Origin: Rubrivivax sp.
GTDB lineage: Bacteria > Pseudomonadota > Gammaproteobacteria > Burkholderiales > Burkholderiaceae_C
Length of the DNA stretch: 64,000 nucleotides
NCBI GenBank assembly: GCA_024641945.1
Contig: JAHECD010000009.1
Location: 1 to 64,000, forward strand
Direction: 5' to 3'
Below the pieces are notes generated by a model. That model had not been told where the DNA came from and did not search any database. It saw only the letters and a list, made by a program, of their open reading frames with translations. Position 1 is the first letter of the stretch; the number at the start of each line of letters is the position of its first letter. Below are positions 10,750 through 36,668 of this stretch, piece by piece. The position numbers were made by a program, and so were the translations under genes.

Positions 10750-11397
10750 ATGTCTGCCAAACCACTCGTCTTTCACGAAGCCGCGCGCGAGAAGATCCGC
10801 CACGGGGTCGACATCCTCGCCGATGCCGTCAAGGTGACACTCGGCCCACGCGGGCGCACCGTGATCCTGGAACGCGACTACGGCACGCCGCAGATCGGGA
10901 ACTCCGGCGTGGTCGTCGCGCGCACCGTCGAACTCGAGGACCGGTTCGAGAACATGGGCGCGCAACTGCTGCGCGAGGTGGCGGCCCGCACCCGCGAGAT
11001 GGCGGGCGGCGGCGTGGCGCTGCTGCGTGCGCGGCGCCTGCTCCACGGTCTGAAGAGCCCGACGCTCGACGAGGATTCCGGCGTGCGCATCGTGATGCGC
11101 GCGCTCGAGGAGCCGCTGCGCTGCATCGTCGCCAATGCCGGCCTCGAGGCGTCGGTCATCGTGCACCGGATCGACGATTCGGCGGAGCGCGGCTACGGCT
11201 ACAACGCCGCCACGCGCGAGTACGGCGACCTGCTGAAGATGGGCGCGGTCGACCCGGTCAAGGTGACCCGGCCCGCACTGCAGAACGCCAGCGCGATTGC
11301 CGGGCACGTGCTCACGACCGACTGCCTGATCGCCAATGCGCCTGCGCCGCGCGGCGGCGCCGCGGCGTCCGAGGGCGGCGCCATGCCCGCCTTCTAG
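10750..11397 (+). CDS. Internally deleted GroEL (equatorial-domain-only chaperonin)
   Basis: Start ATG 10750 ([20 protein letters not shown]). The 215-residue product aligns with GroEL 1-86 ([36 protein letters not shown]) and then jumps at [12 protein letters not shown] to GroEL from about residue 415 to the end ([20 protein letters not shown]). About 330 residues are missing: the DGTTTA ATPase loop, both intermediate segments and the whole apical substrate-binding domain. The catalytic Asp52 position is Ser (IGNSG instead of TKDG). The frame is intact and the rest is well conserved. It could be a decaying gene or a small protein acting on full GroEL rings. An Fnr-type box lies upstream; cfa follows 12 bases later. 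Confidence 0.85.
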
Positions 11398-13133: not shown

Positions 13134-13880
13134 GAGGCCTGATGGCCCTGAAGGGGCTCGGATCCGGGTCGACGGTGCAGAGGCGTCTGACGGCGACGGC
13201 GTGGTTCCACCAGATCGACGGCCGCATCGCCGGTGACCGTGGGCGCGCCATCGAACGGGCCACTGACACGGCCCCACGGACGATGGCGAACGTCCCCTTG
13301 GGTCCCCTTGGCGGCAACGCTTCACCGTGAACGAAGCGCCACGCTGAAACGCCCCCGGCAACATCGCGACGACGAAGTCGCTGCCGGACTCGTCAACGCC
13401 GGCCCAGGGTGACCGAATCTGCACACGCACCGGCCATGTCGTGGTCGCGTTCGACTGCCGCATGGAACGAGGCCACGCTCCGTTAGGAACGTGGCCCCGA
13501 GAACCACAAGGCACAGGCGACAAGGGCGCCAGTGCCCCGGGGCTGTGTCTTCAGTTGCCGCCGATCTCCAACTCGCCCGTCGTGCTCGTCGTGCGCGTCG
13601 AATCGACGACCGTGGTTGCCAGGTTCGGCGGCACGTCGTCGAATGCGGTATCGCCTTCCACGTGCACGGTCTGCCCTTCACGGAGACCGTGTCCTGCACA
13701 CGGTTCATCGCTCTGATCGGCCCTTGCACGCAGCCGCATTGGTTGACGCCTCGGCTGGTCGGCGTCGAGGACGGCCGGGTTCATTCCCGCGCAAGCGTGC
13801 CGTCGCACGTCGATTGATCGTCCTCACCCCCGGGGCACCGCGGGCCGGTGACATTGGGTTTTTGCCAAACGAGGACTGTC
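13134..13880. other. Intergenic stretch without a convincing gene
   Basis: About 750 bases. Several overlapping open frames exist on both strands, none with family resemblance, a good ribosome binding site and sensible composition together. The least bad is the minus-strand frame 13808-13551 (tail VVDSTRTTSTTGELEIGGN), which I do not call. No Fnr-type box was seen. The promoter of the unknown gene at 13881 must lie here. Confidence 0.5.
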
Positions 13881-15161
13881 ATGGCCGCCGCGATCTGTGA
13901 AGACTTCATCTACGAGCCTGCACTGGACGGCCGGCTCGTCATCAACCGCACGCTGGAGGGCCCGCCGCTGGCGACGGTGTCCGACGACTTCGACCTCGGG
14001 GGCCTGATGCTCGCCGGCGCGCAGGCGGTGCCGTACATCAAGTTCGGCTTCCTGACGACGTGGGCCCCGAAGGAAGCGCTCATCGGCCCGGCACGCTCGA
14101 TCCTCGGGCTGGCGCCGGGCGAGGAGTTGACGATCGACGTCACGATCGCCTACCAGTTCGACTATGCGGCGGCGGTGACCAATACCGCCGAGTATTCGCA
14201 GACGGTCGACACCACGCAGCGCGATTACACCGAGACCGGCGACGTCACGTCCAAGGCGACCGAGACGACGACCACCGACTCCGACTCGGTCGACCTCGGG
14301 CCGTTGGGCAGCTGGGGAAAGAGCGGCGATACCGGCACGTCAACGATCTCGGAAATCATCGAGCACACCAGCACGTCGATCTCCGAGATGCTCAAGTCGG
14401 TGAGCACGACGCAGACCAACGGCAAGTGCGTCGAGGTCTCGATGAGCGCCGGCATGCAGCGCGAGAACACGGTCACGCGCCGCGTCGTCAACCCCTACCG
14501 CGACCGCTCGCTCGAACTGCGCTTCCACCCCGTGTTCCGCCGATTCGAGGTCACCACCGTCGTGCTCGAGGCTTTCGAGATCGGCTTGTCGATGGTCGTC
14601 GGCGCCGCCAAGTTCGCGCCCCGCGTCGCGCTGATGCACGCGGACTTCCTCGACCGCACGGTGCGTGACCGTGCCGCGCTCGGCGCATACCAAGCGCAGA
14701 TCCTCGAAACGCACGAGCCCGAGGCCTCCACCGGGGCGCGCATCCTGCAGGCGCACCTGGACGCCAACGCACCGCACTACACCGCGGCATTCCTGGCCGA
14801 GACCGTGCGACTCGGCGGCCGCTCTGCCGCCAAGGGCTGCGCGCAACAGATGCTGGAGCGCATGCCCGGGCTGGCTCGAAGCCGCTCACGCAACGTGCAC
14901 AGCGCGCTGGCGTTCGACAGGATGCGGGTGCAGTCGGGGCGCATCCTGCTGCCGGCGCGCAACCTGGCGGACTTCAAGAACGCGCTCAAGCTGCCACGCT
15001 GGGAACTGGGAATCGTCGACGACCTGGCGGCTGCCGGCAGGGCGACTGCGCTGCCGAAGATCTCGGTATCGAAGCAGGACGTGAGGCTGTTCATGGGCAC
15101 GCACGTCGAGGCCATGGCCGGGTCCTGCGTGCTGCAGGATCTTCCGGCCGCGACGGCGTGA
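13881..15161 (+). CDS. Protein of unknown function, coupled to a PhoD-like gene
   Basis: ATG 13881 (MAAAICEDFIYEPALDGRLV) is preferred, with GAGG upstream; an earlier ATG at 13848 lacks one. I do not recognise a named family. The 426-residue product has no signal peptide or membrane helix. Residues about 60-110 look like beta strands (GFLTTWAPKEALIGPARSIL, then LTIDVTIAYQFDYAAAVTNT). Residues 110-190 are extremely rich in Thr, Ser, Asp and Glu (TSKATETTTTDSDSVDLGPL), and the C-terminal half is helical and Arg/Ala-rich. Its stop overlaps the GTG start of the PhoD-like gene (GTGA), implying linked expression and perhaps function. A structural or surface-assembly role is possible but speculative. 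Confidence 0.75.
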   Translation: MAAAICEDFIYEPALDGRLVINRTLEGPPLATVSDDFDLGGLMLAGAQAVPYIKFGFLTTWAPKEALIGPARSILGLAPGEELTIDVTIAYQFDYAAAVTNTAEYSQTVDTTQRDYTETGDVTSKATETTTTDSDSVDLGPLGSWGKSGDTGTSTISEIIEHTSTSISEMLKSVSTTQTNGKCVEVSMSAGMQRENTVTRRVVNPYRDRSLELRFHPVFRRFEVTTVVLEAFEIGLSMVVGAAKFAPRVALMHADFLDRTVRDRAALGAYQAQILETHEPEASTGARILQAHLDANAPHYTAAFLAETVRLGGRSAAKGCAQQMLERMPGLARSRSRNVHSALAFDRMRVQSGRILLPARNLADFKNALKLPRWELGIVDDLAAAGRATALPKISVSKQDVRLFMGTHVEAMAGSCVLQDLPAATA

Positions 15162-17047
15162 CCGCGAAACGCGATCCGCTGCAACCGCTGGGGCCGCGGC
15201 ACCAGGACCGGCCGGGCCCCGCCCCGCGGCTCGTGCTGGGTCCGATGCTGCGCCACGTCGATCACGACAGCGCCGTGCTCTGGGTGCAGGTGTCGCACGC
15301 GTGCCAGGTCGAGTGGCGCCTGCGCCGCAACGGCCGCGCGGAACGCCGCTTCACGGCCATGACCTTCTGCGTGCACGGGCGCCACTACGCCCTCATCGCC
15401 GCCAAGGGCCTGTTTGCGGGCTGGTGGTACGAGTACGACGTGTGGGCGCAGCGGCGCGGCGGTGCGCTCACGGGAGTGTGGCCCGACGCACGCGCCACGG
15501 GCGCGCGGCTGCCACCGAGCAGCTTTCGCACGTTGCCGTCCGGCGGCGGGGGCGAGGTGCGGCTGGCCGTGGTGTCGTGCCGCGCGCCCGAGAGCCACGA
15601 TGCGGACGGCGACAAGGAGATCGGCGTCGACGCCCTGAAGCTTCTGGCAAGACGCCTGAAGCGCCAGTACCCGATGCGGCGCATCGCCTGGCCGCAAGCG
15701 CTGCTGGAAATCGGCGACCAGGTGTATGCCGACAGCGTCTCGCGCGCGATGGAGGCCGTGCTGAAGACCCCGCACGAAAGAATCGGCGTGCCGGTCAACG
15801 AGGTCGTCTCCTTCCCCGAGTTCGCGGAGCTCTACGCAGAGGCCTGGGGCGACGACGACATCCGCTGGATGCGCTCGTGCATCCCGAGCATCGGCATCTT
15901 CGACGACCACGAGATCGTCGACGACTGGAATATCAACAGCGCATGGGTGGACGAGCAGCGCGCCCAGCCCTGGCGCATGGCGCGCATCCGCGCGGGGCTG
16001 CTGGCCTACTGGGTCTACCAGGGCGCAGGCAACCTGGCACCCGAGGCCTGGAGCGGCGACGAACGCATGCAGGCGCTCAGAAGCCCGGGCGCGCTGCTCG
16101 CCGCCGGGAAGCAGCGCGACGTTACGCGCAGCGCCGAATCGCTGTTCGCACGTTATGCCGTGGGCACGCGCAAGGCCCGCTGGAGCTACGAGCGGCCCAT
16201 CGGCCCGGTGCGCCTGATCGTCGGCGACTGCCGCACGCGGCGCGACCTGAAGGCCAACCGCCTGATGGACGACGACGAGTGGTCGTGGTTCCGCGATGCG
16301 GTGCTCGACGCCAAGGAGTCGCATCTGCTGCTCGTGCTGACCTTGCCCGTGCTCCTGCCCGACGGCATCCGTGAACTGGAGTCGTCGTCGGCCGCGTCGC
16401 GCGAGTTCCCGTGGACGCTCGACCCGCTGGCGGCGATCATCGACGCGGCGTTCGAAGCCGGAGAAGACAAGCCGCTGCGGCGCTATATGCAGGAGCGTGT
16501 CGACCTCGAGCATTGGCCCGCCTTCCCGGCATCCTTCGACGACTTCATCAGTCTTCTCGAGGACCGCCTGATGGCGCCGGGCCGCACGACGCGCTCGCTG
16601 GTGCTGCTGTCGGGCGACGTGCACTTCAGCTACTGCATGACGGCCCGGCTTGCCAAGGCGCCCGGCCGCCCGGTTCATCAGTTCGTCGTCTCGCCCGCGC
16701 GCAACCGGCTGAGCCCGGGCAACGAGTCGCTGTTCCGCGTGATGGCCGGGCCGCACGGGCGCGCCCTGGTCGACCTCGGACGCGCACTCGTGGCGGCGCA
16801 CGGCGGCGCCGGCGTGCTGCCGGTCAACCCGAAGGCCGACGCCACGAATGCGCGGATCGTGACGACCCTGCTGTCGCTCGGCGGGCGCAACCTGCTCTTC
16901 GACAACGTCTTCGCGATGCTGCGCACCGGGCCGGCCGGCGGCGAACTGCGCTTCGAGGCCGCCGGCGGCACGGCAGGGCGCGAGGTGGAAGCTTATGGCA
17001 GCCGCACGCTGCGCCCTGCCGGGCGCGTGCGGGTGGCCTTGGCGTGA
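15158..17047 (+). CDS. PhoD-like metallophosphoesterase
   Basis: The start is GTG 15158, overlapping the previous stop by four bases. The 629-residue protein has an N-terminal beta domain (LVLGPMLRHVDHDSAVLWVQ) and a metallophosphatase domain with the PhoD-family ligand motifs: AVVSCRAPES, LLEIGDQVYADSVS, GIFDDHEIVDDWN and LLSGDVHFSY. No Tat or Sec signal peptide is visible, unlike classic secreted PhoD alkaline phosphatase, so it probably works in the cytoplasm or with its unknown partner. It should hydrolyse phosphate mono- or diesters; the substrate is unknown. Confidence 0.85.
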   Translation: MTAKRDPLQPLGPRHQDRPGPAPRLVLGPMLRHVDHDSAVLWVQVSHACQVEWRLRRNGRAERRFTAMTFCVHGRHYALIAAKGLFAGWWYEYDVWAQRRGGALTGVWPDARATGARLPPSSFRTLPSGGGGEVRLAVVSCRAPESHDADGDKEIGVDALKLLARRLKRQYPMRRIAWPQALLEIGDQVYADSVSRAMEAVLKTPHERIGVPVNEVVSFPEFAELYAEAWGDDDIRWMRSCIPSIGIFDDHEIVDDWNINSAWVDEQRAQPWRMARIRAGLLAYWVYQGAGNLAPEAWSGDERMQALRSPGALLAAGKQRDVTRSAESLFARYAVGTRKARWSYERPIGPVRLIVGDCRTRRDLKANRLMDDDEWSWFRDAVLDAKESHLLLVLTLPVLLPDGIRELESSSAASREFPWTLDPLAAIIDAAFEAGEDKPLRRYMQERVDLEHWPAFPASFDDFISLLEDRLMAPGRTTRSLVLLSGDVHFSYCMTARLAKAPGRPVHQFVVSPARNRLSPGNESLFRVMAGPHGRALVDLGRALVAAHGGAGVLPVNPKADATNARIVTTLLSLGGRNLLFDNVFAMLRTGPAGGELRFEAAGGTAGREVEAYGSRTLRPAGRVRVALA

Positions 17048-17255: not shown

Positions 17256-17942
17256 ATGGCCATGATCGAAGCGCGCGGCATCTCACGTGTCTACAAGACC
17301 GGCAGCGTGGAGGTCATGGCGTTGCGCGACGTCAGCGTCGACATCGACGCGCGCGAGTTCGTCGCCTTCGTCGGCCCTTCGGGCAGCGGCAAGTCGACGC
17401 TGCTGAACATGGTGGGTTGCCTGGATCACCCCAGCAGCGGCACGCTGTCGGTGCTGGGCAGCGATGTCGCCGCGCTGGACCGGGCGCACGCGGCCGCGTT
17501 CCGCGGCGAGTACCTGGGTTTCGTCTTCCAGGAATTCAATCTCGTGCCGGTGCTTTCGGCCTTCGAGAACGTCGAATACCCGTTGCTGATGATCCGCAGC
17601 TGGCCGCCCGACCGGCGCCGCGCGCAGGTCATGAAGCTGCTCGACGCCGTGGGCATGGCCGACCAGGCGCACAAGCGGCCGGACGAGCTATCCGGCGGCC
17701 AGAAGCAGCGCGTCGCCGTGGCACGCGCCCTCGTCTCCGAGCCCAAGCTCGTACTGGCCGACGAACCCACCGCCAACCTCGACCACGACAGTGCGCACAA
17801 GGTGCTCGACCTGATGAAGCGCATGCGCGACGACTTCGGCACCACGTTCGTCTTCTCGACCCACGACCCCAAGATCATGCAGGCCGCCGAGCGCACGCTG
17901 ACGCTCGAGGATGGCCGCCTGGTCCGGGAGCAGCGCGCATGA
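17256..17942 (+). CDS. ABC transporter ATP-binding protein, LolD/MacB type
   Basis: ATG 17256 with AAGGAA upstream is preferred over the ORF start at 17208. The 228-residue ATPase has Walker A VGPSGSGKSTLLNMV, the Q-loop FVFQEFNLVP, signature LSGGQKQRVAVARAL, Walker B LVLADEPT with ANLD, and switch histidine STHD. The sequence class is that of LolD/MacB exporters, which pull lipoproteins or other amphiphiles out of the inner membrane. It overlaps the permease gene by four bases (ATGA) and starts a four-gene envelope operon. Confidence 0.93.
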   Translation: MAMIEARGISRVYKTGSVEVMALRDVSVDIDAREFVAFVGPSGSGKSTLLNMVGCLDHPSSGTLSVLGSDVAALDRAHAAAFRGEYLGFVFQEFNLVPVLSAFENVEYPLLMIRSWPPDRRRAQVMKLLDAVGMADQAHKRPDELSGGQKQRVAVARALVSEPKLVLADEPTANLDHDSAHKVLDLMKRMRDDFGTTFVFSTHDPKIMQAAERTLTLEDGRLVREQRA

Positions 17943-19183
17943 TGGCCACGCTCAAGCTTTCGGCGCGCAACCTCATGCGCTACCGCCGCCGCACGCTGCT
18001 GACGGCCGGCCTGATCACGATCGGCGTCGTCGCCATGCTCCTGTTCGTCTCGGCCGCGGGGTCGTTCAAGCAGGTGATGATCGGGCAGATCACCGACAGC
18101 ATGCTGGGGCACCTGCAGGTGCACCGCAAGGGCTACGTCGCTTCGGTCGACAACCTGCCGCTGAACCTGAACATCGGCGCCAGGATGCTCGAGCGCGTGA
18201 ACACCGAACTCGCTGCCCAGCCCGGCATCGCCGCCAGCTCGGTGCGCATCAAGCTGGGCGCGATGTTCAGCAACTTCAGCGAGACGACCAGCATCCGGCT
18301 GAACGGCGTCGATCCGGCGGCGGAGGACGCCGCCGCACCGGGCCTGCGCCAGCGCATCATCGACGGCGCGCGCGACGGCCCGCTGGTCGGGCCCGGCCAG
18401 TTGCTGATCCCCGACCTGATCGCCAAGGGCATGAAGGTCAAGGTCGGCGACAGCGTGGTGCTGGTGGCCACCAACCGCGACGGCTCGGTCAACGGGAAGA
18501 ATTTCACCGTGCGCGGCGTGCTCGAGCCGGTGACCGGACCGGGCGGACGCGACGGCTATCTGCACCAGGACGACGCGCGCGAACTGCTGCGCATGGACGA
18601 ACCCGAAGCGATGGAAATCGCGATCCGGCTGCAGGACATGGGCAGGCTGGACGCCGTGGAATCCGCGCTGACCGCGCGCCTGCAGGCGCTGGTCAACAAG
18701 GACGGCAAGCCCGTGCTCGAGCTGCACAGCTGGAAGGCCCTGTCGCCATTCGCCAATATCGCCAACATGATCGACCTGATGACCCTGTTCATCCGCGTCA
18801 TGCTGGTGGCCATCGTGCTGGTCAGCGTGATGAACGTGATGCTGATGGCTGTGTACGAACGCATCCGCGAGATCGGCACGCTGGCGGCCATCGGCACGCC
18901 GCCGCGGCGCATCCTGGGTCTGTACGTCGGCGAAGGGCTGCTGCTGGGCCTGCTGGGCGCGGCCATCGGCGTGGCGCTCAGTCTCGCCGTCGTCGCCTTG
19001 CTCAACCTGCACCCGCTGCAGTTTCCGTTCGGCCGCCAGATGATCACGCTGCAGCCGACGCTGGCACCCACCGAGATCGCGACCGTCGCGCTGCTGGTCA
19101 TCGGCATGGCCGTGCTGGCCAGCCTGCAGCCGGCCTGGCGCGCGTCGCGCATGGATCCGATCCAGGCGCTGCGCCACATCTGA
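17939..19183 (+). CDS. ABC transporter permease, FtsX/LolE-like
   Basis: Starts at ATG 17939, overlapping the ATPase stop. The 414-residue protein has one N-terminal membrane helix (TLLTAGLITIGVVAMLLFVS), a large periplasmic MacB-type domain (about residues 45-270) and three C-terminal helices of the FtsX domain (IRVMLVAIVLVSVMNVMLMA, VGEGLLLGLLGAAIGVALSL). The cytosolic coupling motif YERIREIGTLAAIGTPPRRI is typical. It is expected to work mechanically, driven by the preceding ATPase, to deliver a substrate to the downstream periplasmic LolA-like protein. Confidence 0.92.
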   Translation: MMATLKLSARNLMRYRRRTLLTAGLITIGVVAMLLFVSAAGSFKQVMIGQITDSMLGHLQVHRKGYVASVDNLPLNLNIGARMLERVNTELAAQPGIAASSVRIKLGAMFSNFSETTSIRLNGVDPAAEDAAAPGLRQRIIDGARDGPLVGPGQLLIPDLIAKGMKVKVGDSVVLVATNRDGSVNGKNFTVRGVLEPVTGPGGRDGYLHQDDARELLRMDEPEAMEIAIRLQDMGRLDAVESALTARLQALVNKDGKPVLELHSWKALSPFANIANMIDLMTLFIRVMLVAIVLVSVMNVMLMAVYERIREIGTLAAIGTPPRRILGLYVGEGLLLGLLGAAIGVALSLAVVALLNLHPLQFPFGRQMITLQPTLAPTEIATVALLVIGMAVLASLQPAWRASRMDPIQALRHI

Positions 19184-19193
19184 GGACCCCCCC

Positions 19194-19928
19194 ATGAAGA
19201 CGATCCGACGCCTGCTGGTGCTGGCAGCCCTTTTCCCCCCGAGTGCCTTCGCGCTCGACGGCCGCGCGTTGCTCGAGCAGGTCGACCGCAACCTCGAGCC
19301 CGAGTCGTACGAGATGACACGCAAGCTCATCAACGAGGAGCCCGACGGCCGGCGCAAGGAGTTCATCCTGTATTCGGTGAAGAAGGGCCGCGACAAGGTG
19401 GCGGCGCTGTTCCTCGCGCCGGCCAGCGACATGGGCCGCGCCACGCTGCGCCAGGGCGACAACATGTGGCTGTACATCCCCAACGTCGGCAAGCCGGTGC
19501 GCATCACCAGCCTGCAGAGCGTCACCGGCGGGGTGTTCAACAACGCCGACATCCTGCGCGTGGACTACTCGCAGGAATACAACGTCACGTCCGCCAGCGA
19601 GGACGGCCCGGCCTACCTGCTCGACCTCAAGGCCAAGACCGGCAACGTGGCCTACGACCGCCTCAAGCTGACGATCGATCGCAAGACCGTGCTGCCGACC
19701 GTGATCGAGGCGTACGCCGCCAGCGGCATGCTCGTGAAGACCCTGCGTTTCAAGGACATCAAGGATTTCGGCGCCGGCATCCGCCGGCCGGCCACGGTGG
19801 AAACCGACAGCCCGTTGAACAAGGGCTACAAGTCGGTGATGCTCTACGCAGCCGTCAAGAAGCGCGAGGTGCCCGACGAGGTCTTCACGCTGAACTACCT
19901 GGCGCGGCTGGAAGAGCTGCGCAAGTGA
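19194..19928 (+). CDS. Periplasmic outer-membrane lipoprotein-sorting (LolA-like) protein
   Basis: The 244-residue protein has a Sec signal peptide ending SAFA before LDGRALL. The mature part has the alternating strands of the LolA-like fold, with the family blocks DNMWLYIPNVGKPVRITSLQ, GGVFNNADILRVDYSQEYNV and TVLPTVIEAYAASGMLVKTL. Proteins of this group bind an acyl or lipid moiety in a half-barrel and are usually encoded next to an ABC exporter. It starts 10 bases after the permease gene and overlaps the barrel gene by four bases. Confidence 0.88.
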   Translation: MKTIRRLLVLAALFPPSAFALDGRALLEQVDRNLEPESYEMTRKLINEEPDGRRKEFILYSVKKGRDKVAALFLAPASDMGRATLRQGDNMWLYIPNVGKPVRITSLQSVTGGVFNNADILRVDYSQEYNVTSASEDGPAYLLDLKAKTGNVAYDRLKLTIDRKTVLPTVIEAYAASGMLVKTLRFKDIKDFGAGIRRPATVETDSPLNKGYKSVMLYAAVKKREVPDEVFTLNYLARLEELRK

Positions 19929-21238
19929 GCGGCCGGCTGCGCCTGCACCGGCGCCTGCGTGCCGCCGCGGCGCTGGTGGCCGCCGCAGCGGGCGTCGCGC
20001 CGGCGGCGCAGGCCGCCGACTACAGCTTCGACCTCTCCGAGATCGCGCCCAGTCCTTGGCAGGCGAGCGGCTTCGTCGAGGCCAAGGCGGAATCGTTCCG
20101 CCTGCGCAGCGATGCGGCGCTCTACCCGCTGACCTTCGCCGGCGCGACCCCACGCCGCACGCTGGACCGTGGCACCGCGAGCTTCGAGCTCGCGGGAAGG
20201 TACAAACAGGGGATCTTCACCGCCCAGGGCCGGATCACTGGCACCAGCGCGACGGACAGCGACGTGACGAACAGCACGGGCGCGGTGCTGGAGGCCGTCC
20301 TGCGCGCCAGCCCGGCCGAAGGGCTGTCCTTCGATGTCGGCAAGCAGGTGCAACGCTGGGGCAAGGGCTACGCGTGGAGCCCGGTGGCGTTCTTCGAGCG
20401 GCCCAAGGACCCGAACGACCCGCAACTTTCACGCGAGGGCTACGTGATGGTCAGCGCCGACGCGGTGAAGAGCCTGTCGGGCACGCTGGCGGCCGTCGGC
20501 TTCACGCCGGTGGTGCTGCCGGTGTCTTCGGATCTCAATCGCGACTTCGGCATGCGCGGTCACACCAATGTCGGCGCCAAGCTCTACCTGCTGTGGGACG
20601 ACACCGACATCGACCTGCTGTGGGCCGCCAGGGGCAGCCGACCCGAGCGCGTGGGGCTGGACTTCTCGCGCAACTTCGGCAACCAGCTCGAGGTGCATGG
20701 CGAATGGGCGCGCACCCTCGGTGCCACGTTGCGGGACCTCGGCGCGGGTGGCAGCGTCACGACGCACACCGGCAACGCCGACAGCTGGCTGCTCGGCGCG
20801 CGGTACCTGACGGAGAACGAGATCACGTTCATCGCCGAGTTCTACCGCAACGGTGGTGGCCAGGACGACGGCCAGCTCGCGTCGTTCTACGGGCTGCTCG
20901 ACAGCGCCTTCGGGCCGGCCGGCACGCAGGCACTGCAAGCCCAGGTCCGGTCGCTTGCACAGTCCGGCTACGCGCGCACCAACCCGGGCCGGCACTACGC
21001 CTATCTGCGCGTGGCAGTGAAGGACCCGTTCGACTGGCTGTACCTGACGCCCGCACTGACGACCATCGTCAACCTCGACGACCACAGCTTCCAGGTGACG
21101 CCGGAGGTCCTGTACACCGGCTGGCAGAACGTCGAGTTGCGTGCGCGCGCCATCGTGCTGAAGGGCCGCAACGGCAGCGAGTTTGGCGAGAAACCCGCCG
21201 CGCGGCGGCTCGAACTCGCCCTGAAGCTCTACTTCTGA
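19925..21238 (+). CDS. Outer-membrane beta-barrel protein of the ABC/LolA operon
   Basis: Starts at GTG 19925 (GTGA overlap). The 437-residue product has a signal peptide ending AAQA before ADYSFDL, then a run of amphipathic strands with aromatic belts, and ends in an aromatic residue (LELALKLYF), the usual barrel-assembly signal. Segments such as FDVGKQVQRWGKGYAWSPVA and HYAYLRVAVKDPFDWLYLTP suggest a porin-like barrel. I do not recognise a named family. The operon context suggests an outer-membrane end point for whatever the ABC and LolA-like proteins move, or a receptor for it. Confidence 0.8.
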   Translation: MSGRLRLHRRLRAAAALVAAAAGVAPAAQAADYSFDLSEIAPSPWQASGFVEAKAESFRLRSDAALYPLTFAGATPRRTLDRGTASFELAGRYKQGIFTAQGRITGTSATDSDVTNSTGAVLEAVLRASPAEGLSFDVGKQVQRWGKGYAWSPVAFFERPKDPNDPQLSREGYVMVSADAVKSLSGTLAAVGFTPVVLPVSSDLNRDFGMRGHTNVGAKLYLLWDDTDIDLLWAARGSRPERVGLDFSRNFGNQLEVHGEWARTLGATLRDLGAGGSVTTHTGNADSWLLGARYLTENEITFIAEFYRNGGGQDDGQLASFYGLLDSAFGPAGTQALQAQVRSLAQSGYARTNPGRHYAYLRVAVKDPFDWLYLTPALTTIVNLDDHSFQVTPEVLYTGWQNVELRARAIVLKGRNGSEFGEKPAARRLELALKLYF

Positions 21239-36131: not shown

Positions 36132-36668
36132 CTAGCGCCCTCGGCGCTGGACCTTCCAGCCGGTGCGGTGCGGCTTGACGCTGGCGATGCACACGGCGTG
36201 TGCCAGGCCGCATCCGGGTGTGCCCGGCCACCGGGCGCCGTGGCGCGCCGACGGATTGACCGGCAAGAGCACCACCTGGGCCTCCTCGCGGGTACGCGTG
36301 AATTCCACGTCGCCGCCCACTGCGGGCATCGGCTTCACGGCGGTTTCGGCATAGGCGACGGCCACGAACTGTGGCACGACCAGGCCCGTCAACGACAACC
36401 GCGTCTCGGCCGCGACGACGATCTCGTTGCCCGCACAGTCGATGGCCAGCCCGGGTTTCACACGCACCTGCTCGGGCGATTCGAGGCTCACGTCCAACCC
36501 GCCCACGACGCCCCAACCATGCAGGAACCGGTTGTGCCGTCGCAACCGCGCGAGCAGGTACTGCTGCTCCTGTTGCAGGTCTTCGACCGAGAGCAACTGC
36601 CCGGTGAAATAGCGCACGCGTTCGAGGTTGCCTTCGATGTCCAATTCGCTCTCCCGGTGATGGGTCAT
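36132..36668 (-). CDS. Protein of unknown function upstream of the AbiGi-like gene
   Basis: The start is ATG 36668 (MTHHRESELDIEGNLERVRY); upstream residues in the open frame are not used. The 178-residue protein has a helical N-terminal segment YFTGQLLSVEDLQQEQQYLL followed by HNRFLHGWGVVGGLDVSLES, a block I have seen in uncharacterised proteins, some linked with phage-tail-like clusters, but cannot assign with certainty. The rest alternates strands (VRVKPGLAIDCAGNEIVVAA). No signal peptide. It lies 58 bases before the AbiGi-like gene on the same strand. Confidence 0.65.
   Translation of the reverse strand: MTHHRESELDIEGNLERVRYFTGQLLSVEDLQQEQQYLLARLRRHNRFLHGWGVVGGLDVSLESPEQVRVKPGLAIDCAGNEIVVAAETRLSLTGLVVPQFVAVAYAETAVKPMPAVGGDVEFTRTREEAQVVLLPVNPSARHGARWPGTPGCGLAHAVCIASVKPHRTGWKVQRRGR

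Follow-up and report, generated by a model that had tools for sequence, protein, structure and literature searches.

A compact protein of the unnamed LAPGE superfamily translationally overlapping a signal-less DUF7800-PhoD phosphoesterase in Rubrivivax

Gene X and the overlapping phosphoesterase gene

The window, by which we mean the whole 64,000-nucleotide stretch of Rubrivivax sp. contig JAHECD010000009.1 that was analyzed, contains two forward-strand genes that share four bases. The first, gene X, starts at an ATG located 6 bases past a GAGGA element, and its TGA stop overlaps the GTG start of a phosphoesterase gene, as the initial annotation had reported. The features of the locus are as follows.

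13870..13874, + strand: GAGGA ribosome-binding site of X (sequence)
13881..15161, + strand: gene X, 426 aa, assigned as a compact member of the unnamed LAPGE superfamily (ORF and profile searches)
14109..14123, + strand: LAPGE motif, residues 77-81 of X, the best conserved block of the superfamily (alignment)
14178..14447, + strand: Ser/Thr/Asp-rich segment, residues 100-189 of X (composition)
14487..14513, + strand: VNPYRDRSL motif of X, aligned with N.N..HAL of relatives (alignment)
15096..15122, + strand: C-terminal GTHVEAMAG motif of X, aligned with G[VT][FHL].EA..G of relatives (alignment)
15158..15161, + strand: GTGA overlap of the X stop (TGA) and the phosphatase start (GTG) (sequence)
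15158..17047, + strand: signal-less DUF7800 and PhoD metallophosphoesterase, 629 aa (ORF, Pfam and motifs)

Both genes are host-like in codon use (GC3 0.91), and no sigma-70-like promoter or terminator pattern was found, such patterns being uninformative at this GC content. The low-complexity segment that had been singled out in X proved to be a genuine feature and is not due to chance. The sequence ETTTTDSDSVD (residues 128-138) lies at the center of a stretch of about 90 residues rich in Ser, Thr and Asp, and residues 100-189 hold 43 of these amino acids in 90, the highest value among all proteins of the window (the next reaches 26) and one that 2,000 shuffles of X never produced; the 11-mer alone is weaker against shuffles (11/2,000). 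The segment also carries an LGPLG tip, which in alignments falls on the Gly-rich tip (LGPIA type) seen in relatives.

Profile searches for a known, unrelated family to which X might belong gave zero matches at E<10 in Pfam, NCBIfam and PADLOC. No match was obtained against PDB sequences, and PHROGs yielded only a weak one, to phrog_6191 (E=0.001, function unknown). Searches of phages, plasmids and viral contigs with X found nothing, and a scan of GTDB contigs with the X alignment, limited to pattern matches, returned solely a same-genus relative that was already known; close orthologues were found neither in these collections nor, among pattern matches, in the GTDB species scan.

The second gene encodes a DUF7800 domain (PF25077; residues 23-111, E=2.4e-19, 69.7 bits versus a gathering score of 27) and a PhoD domain (PF09423; E=3.4e-12, 46.6 bits versus a gathering score of 27). 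The motifs SCR (140), GDQVYAD (186), DDHEIVDDW (249) and SGDVHFSY (485) occur in this order, are common to three homologues (Nonomuraea, Gordonia and Rubrobacter) and, from family knowledge, are presumably the metal-site regions of PhoD. The active-site motifs are intact, and the predicted substrate, by analogy with the PhoD family, would be a phosphodi- or monoester. The same arrangement of Cys (SCR), GDQ.YAD, DDHE and SGDVH characterizes the PhoD family (PF09423), including Bacillus subtilis PhoD, and the PhoD crystal structure contains Fe3+ and two Ca2+ (PMC4223295). Unlike the Bacillus subtilis type, the window enzyme has an N-terminal DUF7800 domain and no Tat signal, and its similarity to a solved secreted PhoD-type phosphatase is weak (E=0.017). 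The claim that the Tat signal of classic PhoD is missing was borne out by the first 60 residues, which contain neither a twin-arginine (RR) motif nor a hydrophobic leader; as a control, a classical PhoD encoded elsewhere in this genome (contig C197) carries a RRRAFMRLGSAAFGAVA leader.

The closest PhoD relatives are actinobacterial DUF7800-PhoD proteins (the Nonomuraea, Gordonia and Rubrobacter homologues), which share 34-36% identity over about 500 residues, the same domain order and the lack of a signal peptide. The Gordonia and Rubrobacter copies are annotated as “alkaline phosphatase D family protein,” and the Nonomuraea copy falls in a region without annotation. Compared with them, the window enzyme is longer at both ends, by 24 residues at the N-terminus and by additional residues at the C-terminus. 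Of the gene coordinates, the phosphatase start is the least secure. The overlapping GTG is the first in-frame start and the favored one, but homologues start near residue 22-25, which leaves some room for a start further downstream.

The superfamily to which X is assigned

The earlier description of X as an unknown protein holds in that X falls in no catalogued family, but it needs amending in another respect, since profile comparisons indicate that X is not an orphan and place it, as a compact and divergent form, in a large superfamily that has no name. Two same-genus genomes encode larger proteins with an X-related core (E=3.3e-12 and 3.8e-6). A profile built from X and these two relatives found members in 6/301 genomes of the family and 10/369 of the class, the window's own genome being one of them in each case, which amounts to about 2-3% of sampled relatives; X itself is missing from 398 of 399 related genomes. 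When one large member was used as the query, the search reached plasmids of Streptomyces, Embleya, Haladaptatus, Nostoc, Polaromonas, Psychrobacter and Novosphingobium, and the superfamily is spread over Proteobacteria, actinobacteria, cyanobacteria and haloarchaea (for instance, WP_231406031 from Streptomyces clavuligerus, WP_276248611 from Haladaptatus and BAY35375 from Nostoc).

The assignment of X was also obtained with a profile from which X and its two nearest relatives had been removed, which matches X at E=3.6e-6, compared with a best E of 0.011 among 200 shuffles of X preserving local composition. The hhalign comparison of X alone with the superfamily gave E=1.5e-5 and a probability of 80%, not higher; a value of 99.8% between two superfamily alignments was set aside as circular because both contain the same relative. 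The motifs of X follow the family order (LAPGE at 77, N....L at 203-204 and G...EA..G at 406), and its LAPGE-to-N spacing is 127 residues versus 127-155 in the family.

All members have in common F.Q.W...G...LAPGE (or close variants) and TR.V.N....L...F..V..F.V.T, and many, not all, have the C-terminal G...EA..G. X resembles them in W...G...LAPGE, TR.V.N....L...F, the Ser/Thr-rich middle seen in most members and the C-terminal motif, here in a shortened form. It differs in its coupling to PhoD and in its size, as members are mostly 630-1990 aa, with a few of about 420-450 (two besides X, of 418 and 453 aa), and X has neither the long insert nor the additional domains of the larger ones. At 426 aa, X is a minimal version of the superfamily core and tractable for structural and functional work.

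A Ser/Thr-rich, Gly-tipped segment is usual in the superfamily, and Ser/Thr enrichment of the middle segment was seen in all but one (L027) of ten members measured. The low-complexity segment of X is therefore usual for its superfamily, including members without PhoD nearby, which makes a special substrate tail for the phosphatase unlikely. This bears on the proposal that PhoD dephosphorylates or processes X, at phospho-Ser/Thr of this segment, or acts on a phosphate polymer. The dense Ser/Thr/Asp stretch coupled to a phosphoesterase would suit it, but none of the X-like proteins measured has PhoD nearby, no evident kinase gene lies beside the pair, and the solved PhoD is a phosphodiesterase/phospholipase-D-like enzyme rather than a protein phosphatase (PMC4223295). 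We consider this proposal very improbable.

No Pfam or NCBIfam model matches the core in any member scanned. The sole PDB profile match of the superfamily, stomatin (E=0.02, over a C-terminal stretch), was judged spurious, and literature searches on the superfamily found nothing. Larger members are fused to OmpA, DUF2272, Tectonin or a regulatory-like domain; an OmpA-domain gene adjoins the superfamily member at locus L028 and a phage tail-collar gene the one at L062. These fusions to Tectonin, OmpA and DUF2272, together with the Gly-rich hydrophobic tip that the large relatives carry between Ser/Thr/Gln-rich stretches, would fit X being a membrane-inserting or surface-binding, effector-like protein (a helical hairpin with a Gly-rich tip), with PhoD, whose relatives include a phospholipase D, as its phospholipid-cutting companion. 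We hold this to be very improbable, as the tip of X is short and weakly hydrophobic, neither gene has a secretion signal, the defense library (PADLOC) gives no match, no evident toxin, immunity or injection genes adjoin the pair (judged by eye), and AlphaFold, run on an alignment of X with one relative only, returned a mean pLDDT of 32 and no usable model.

Around the superfamily loci, no neighbor family recurs generally. The only recurring neighbors seen directly beside a superfamily gene are related proteins of 335-408 aa in two distant bacteria (L026, 3593-4600, and L046, 8192-9418). At L023 (80-7703), two 1189-aa superfamily proteins stand in tandem around a small gene, with core regions 55% identical, and adjoin genes that by eye resemble the imuA/imuB/dnaE2 type.

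Pairing of X with PhoD

The initial annotation had envisaged X and the phosphatase as a two-gene system, a view that our survey does not bear out as an established arrangement, since at the superfamily level the two genes occur mostly apart. In the 5.6-20 kb surrounding each of 23 other loci that carry X-superfamily members, no gene resembling PhoD turned up. The other PhoD-like genes examined had no X-like gene nearby, and the two did not co-occur in independent genomes at the loci examined; the pairing is not conserved at this level. Literature searches on DUF7800 pairs also found nothing. Weak as the case for the pair is, following it up brought to light a superfamily whose core has no match in Pfam, NCBIfam or PDB sequences.

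Our tentative account, to which we give somewhat less than an even chance, is that of a rare two-gene unit in which X is a structural or accessory protein made together with a PhoD-like phosphoesterase that it tethers or positions. The unit was probably acquired horizontally. Its second gene would supply an intracellular (or non-classically released) DUF7800-PhoD metallophosphoesterase, and X would most likely be structural or accessory, its putative strand-rich halves (the LAPGE side and the N....L...F side) flanking an extended, polar stretch rich in Ser/Thr whose tip contains Gly; in larger relatives, this core is joined to modules associated with the envelope or with glycans. The OmpA, DUF2272 and Tectonin fusions and the OmpA-domain and tail-collar neighbors noted above speak for this account, as do the GTGA overlap, the matching codon use and the rarity of both genes among related genomes. 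Translational coupling may deliver X and the enzyme in a fixed ratio, with X holding the phosphoesterase in place. The physical partnership is plausible but unproven: we found no characterized relative or solved structure that fixes the function of X, and the low-confidence AlphaFold result provides no fold or interface to back a scaffold role. Should X bind PhoD, this would be the first clue to what the superfamily does and to why certain PhoD enzymes remain intracellular.

The data are accounted for about as well by an accidental operon, which we likewise place a little short of even. X and PhoD would then be independently acquired and functionally unrelated genes on one transcript, PhoD acting as a stand-alone cytosolic phosphoesterase and X having a separate role. 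This agrees with the closest PhoD relatives, the actinobacterial copies, having no X-like neighbor, and with superfamily members standing without PhoD and without any common partner. Short gene overlaps are common in bacterial operons generally. However, the exact 4-bp overlap joins X to PhoD although each is missing from almost every related genome, which makes chance adjacency less likely: at E<=1e-15 the phosphatase was found in none of the other genomes sampled from the same phylum (missing from 398 of 399), and at E<=1e-12 in only one other genome sampled from the same order (missing from 328 of 330).

A second DUF7800-PhoD locus and other genes of the window

The same genome carries a second signal-less DUF7800-PhoD, of 1010 aa, on contig C178 (1-7037), with its DUF7800 match just under the cut-off. 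The next gene encodes a DUF6603 protein (E=4.3e-44), and the third gene, after it, is truncated at the end of the contig. This order, with 4-bp overlaps, occurs on plasmid NZ_CP100462 of the haloarchaeon Salinigranum marinum (334581-344424), and DUF6603 and the third gene recur in plasmids of Streptomyces, Rhizobium and Halobellus without an obvious PhoD. PhoD, DUF6603 and the third gene are possibly an undescribed conserved cluster; literature searches on DUF6603 found nothing.

Like the X-PhoD locus, this cluster joins a signal-less DUF7800-PhoD to a large uncharacterized protein, but the partner is DUF6603, which follows PhoD, and neither of these clusters contains an X domain. The overlaps suggest that signal-less PhoD can couple translationally to large uncharacterized proteins, with differing partners. 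A broader reading, which we regard as rather unlikely, would combine both loci: X would be the compact branch of an undescribed bacterial and haloarchaeal superfamily, and signal-less DUF7800-PhoD, repeatedly coupled to large proteins (X or DUF6603), would define an unrecognized class of phosphoesterase-scaffold cassettes.

Downstream of the pair, positions 17256-21238 (+ strand) hold an ABC ATPase, a permease, an outer-membrane-lipoprotein-type gene and a large fourth gene, which form one module kept in three same-genus genomes without X-PhoD. A single operon of X-PhoD with this transporter was rejected, as the four-gene module occurs without X-PhoD in relatives. Elsewhere in the window, positions 36132-36668 (- strand) encode a 178-aa protein with FTGQLLSVEDLQQEQQYLLARLRRHNRFLHGWGVVGGLDV and no Pfam match. 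Additionally, a 215-aa GroEL-like protein is encoded at 10750-11397 (+ strand), between alcohol dehydrogenase-like and cyclopropane-fatty-acid synthase-like genes; its GroEL-like N-terminus is fused to a segment that matches positions 368-488 of the Cpn60 model, so that its apical domain seems to be missing.
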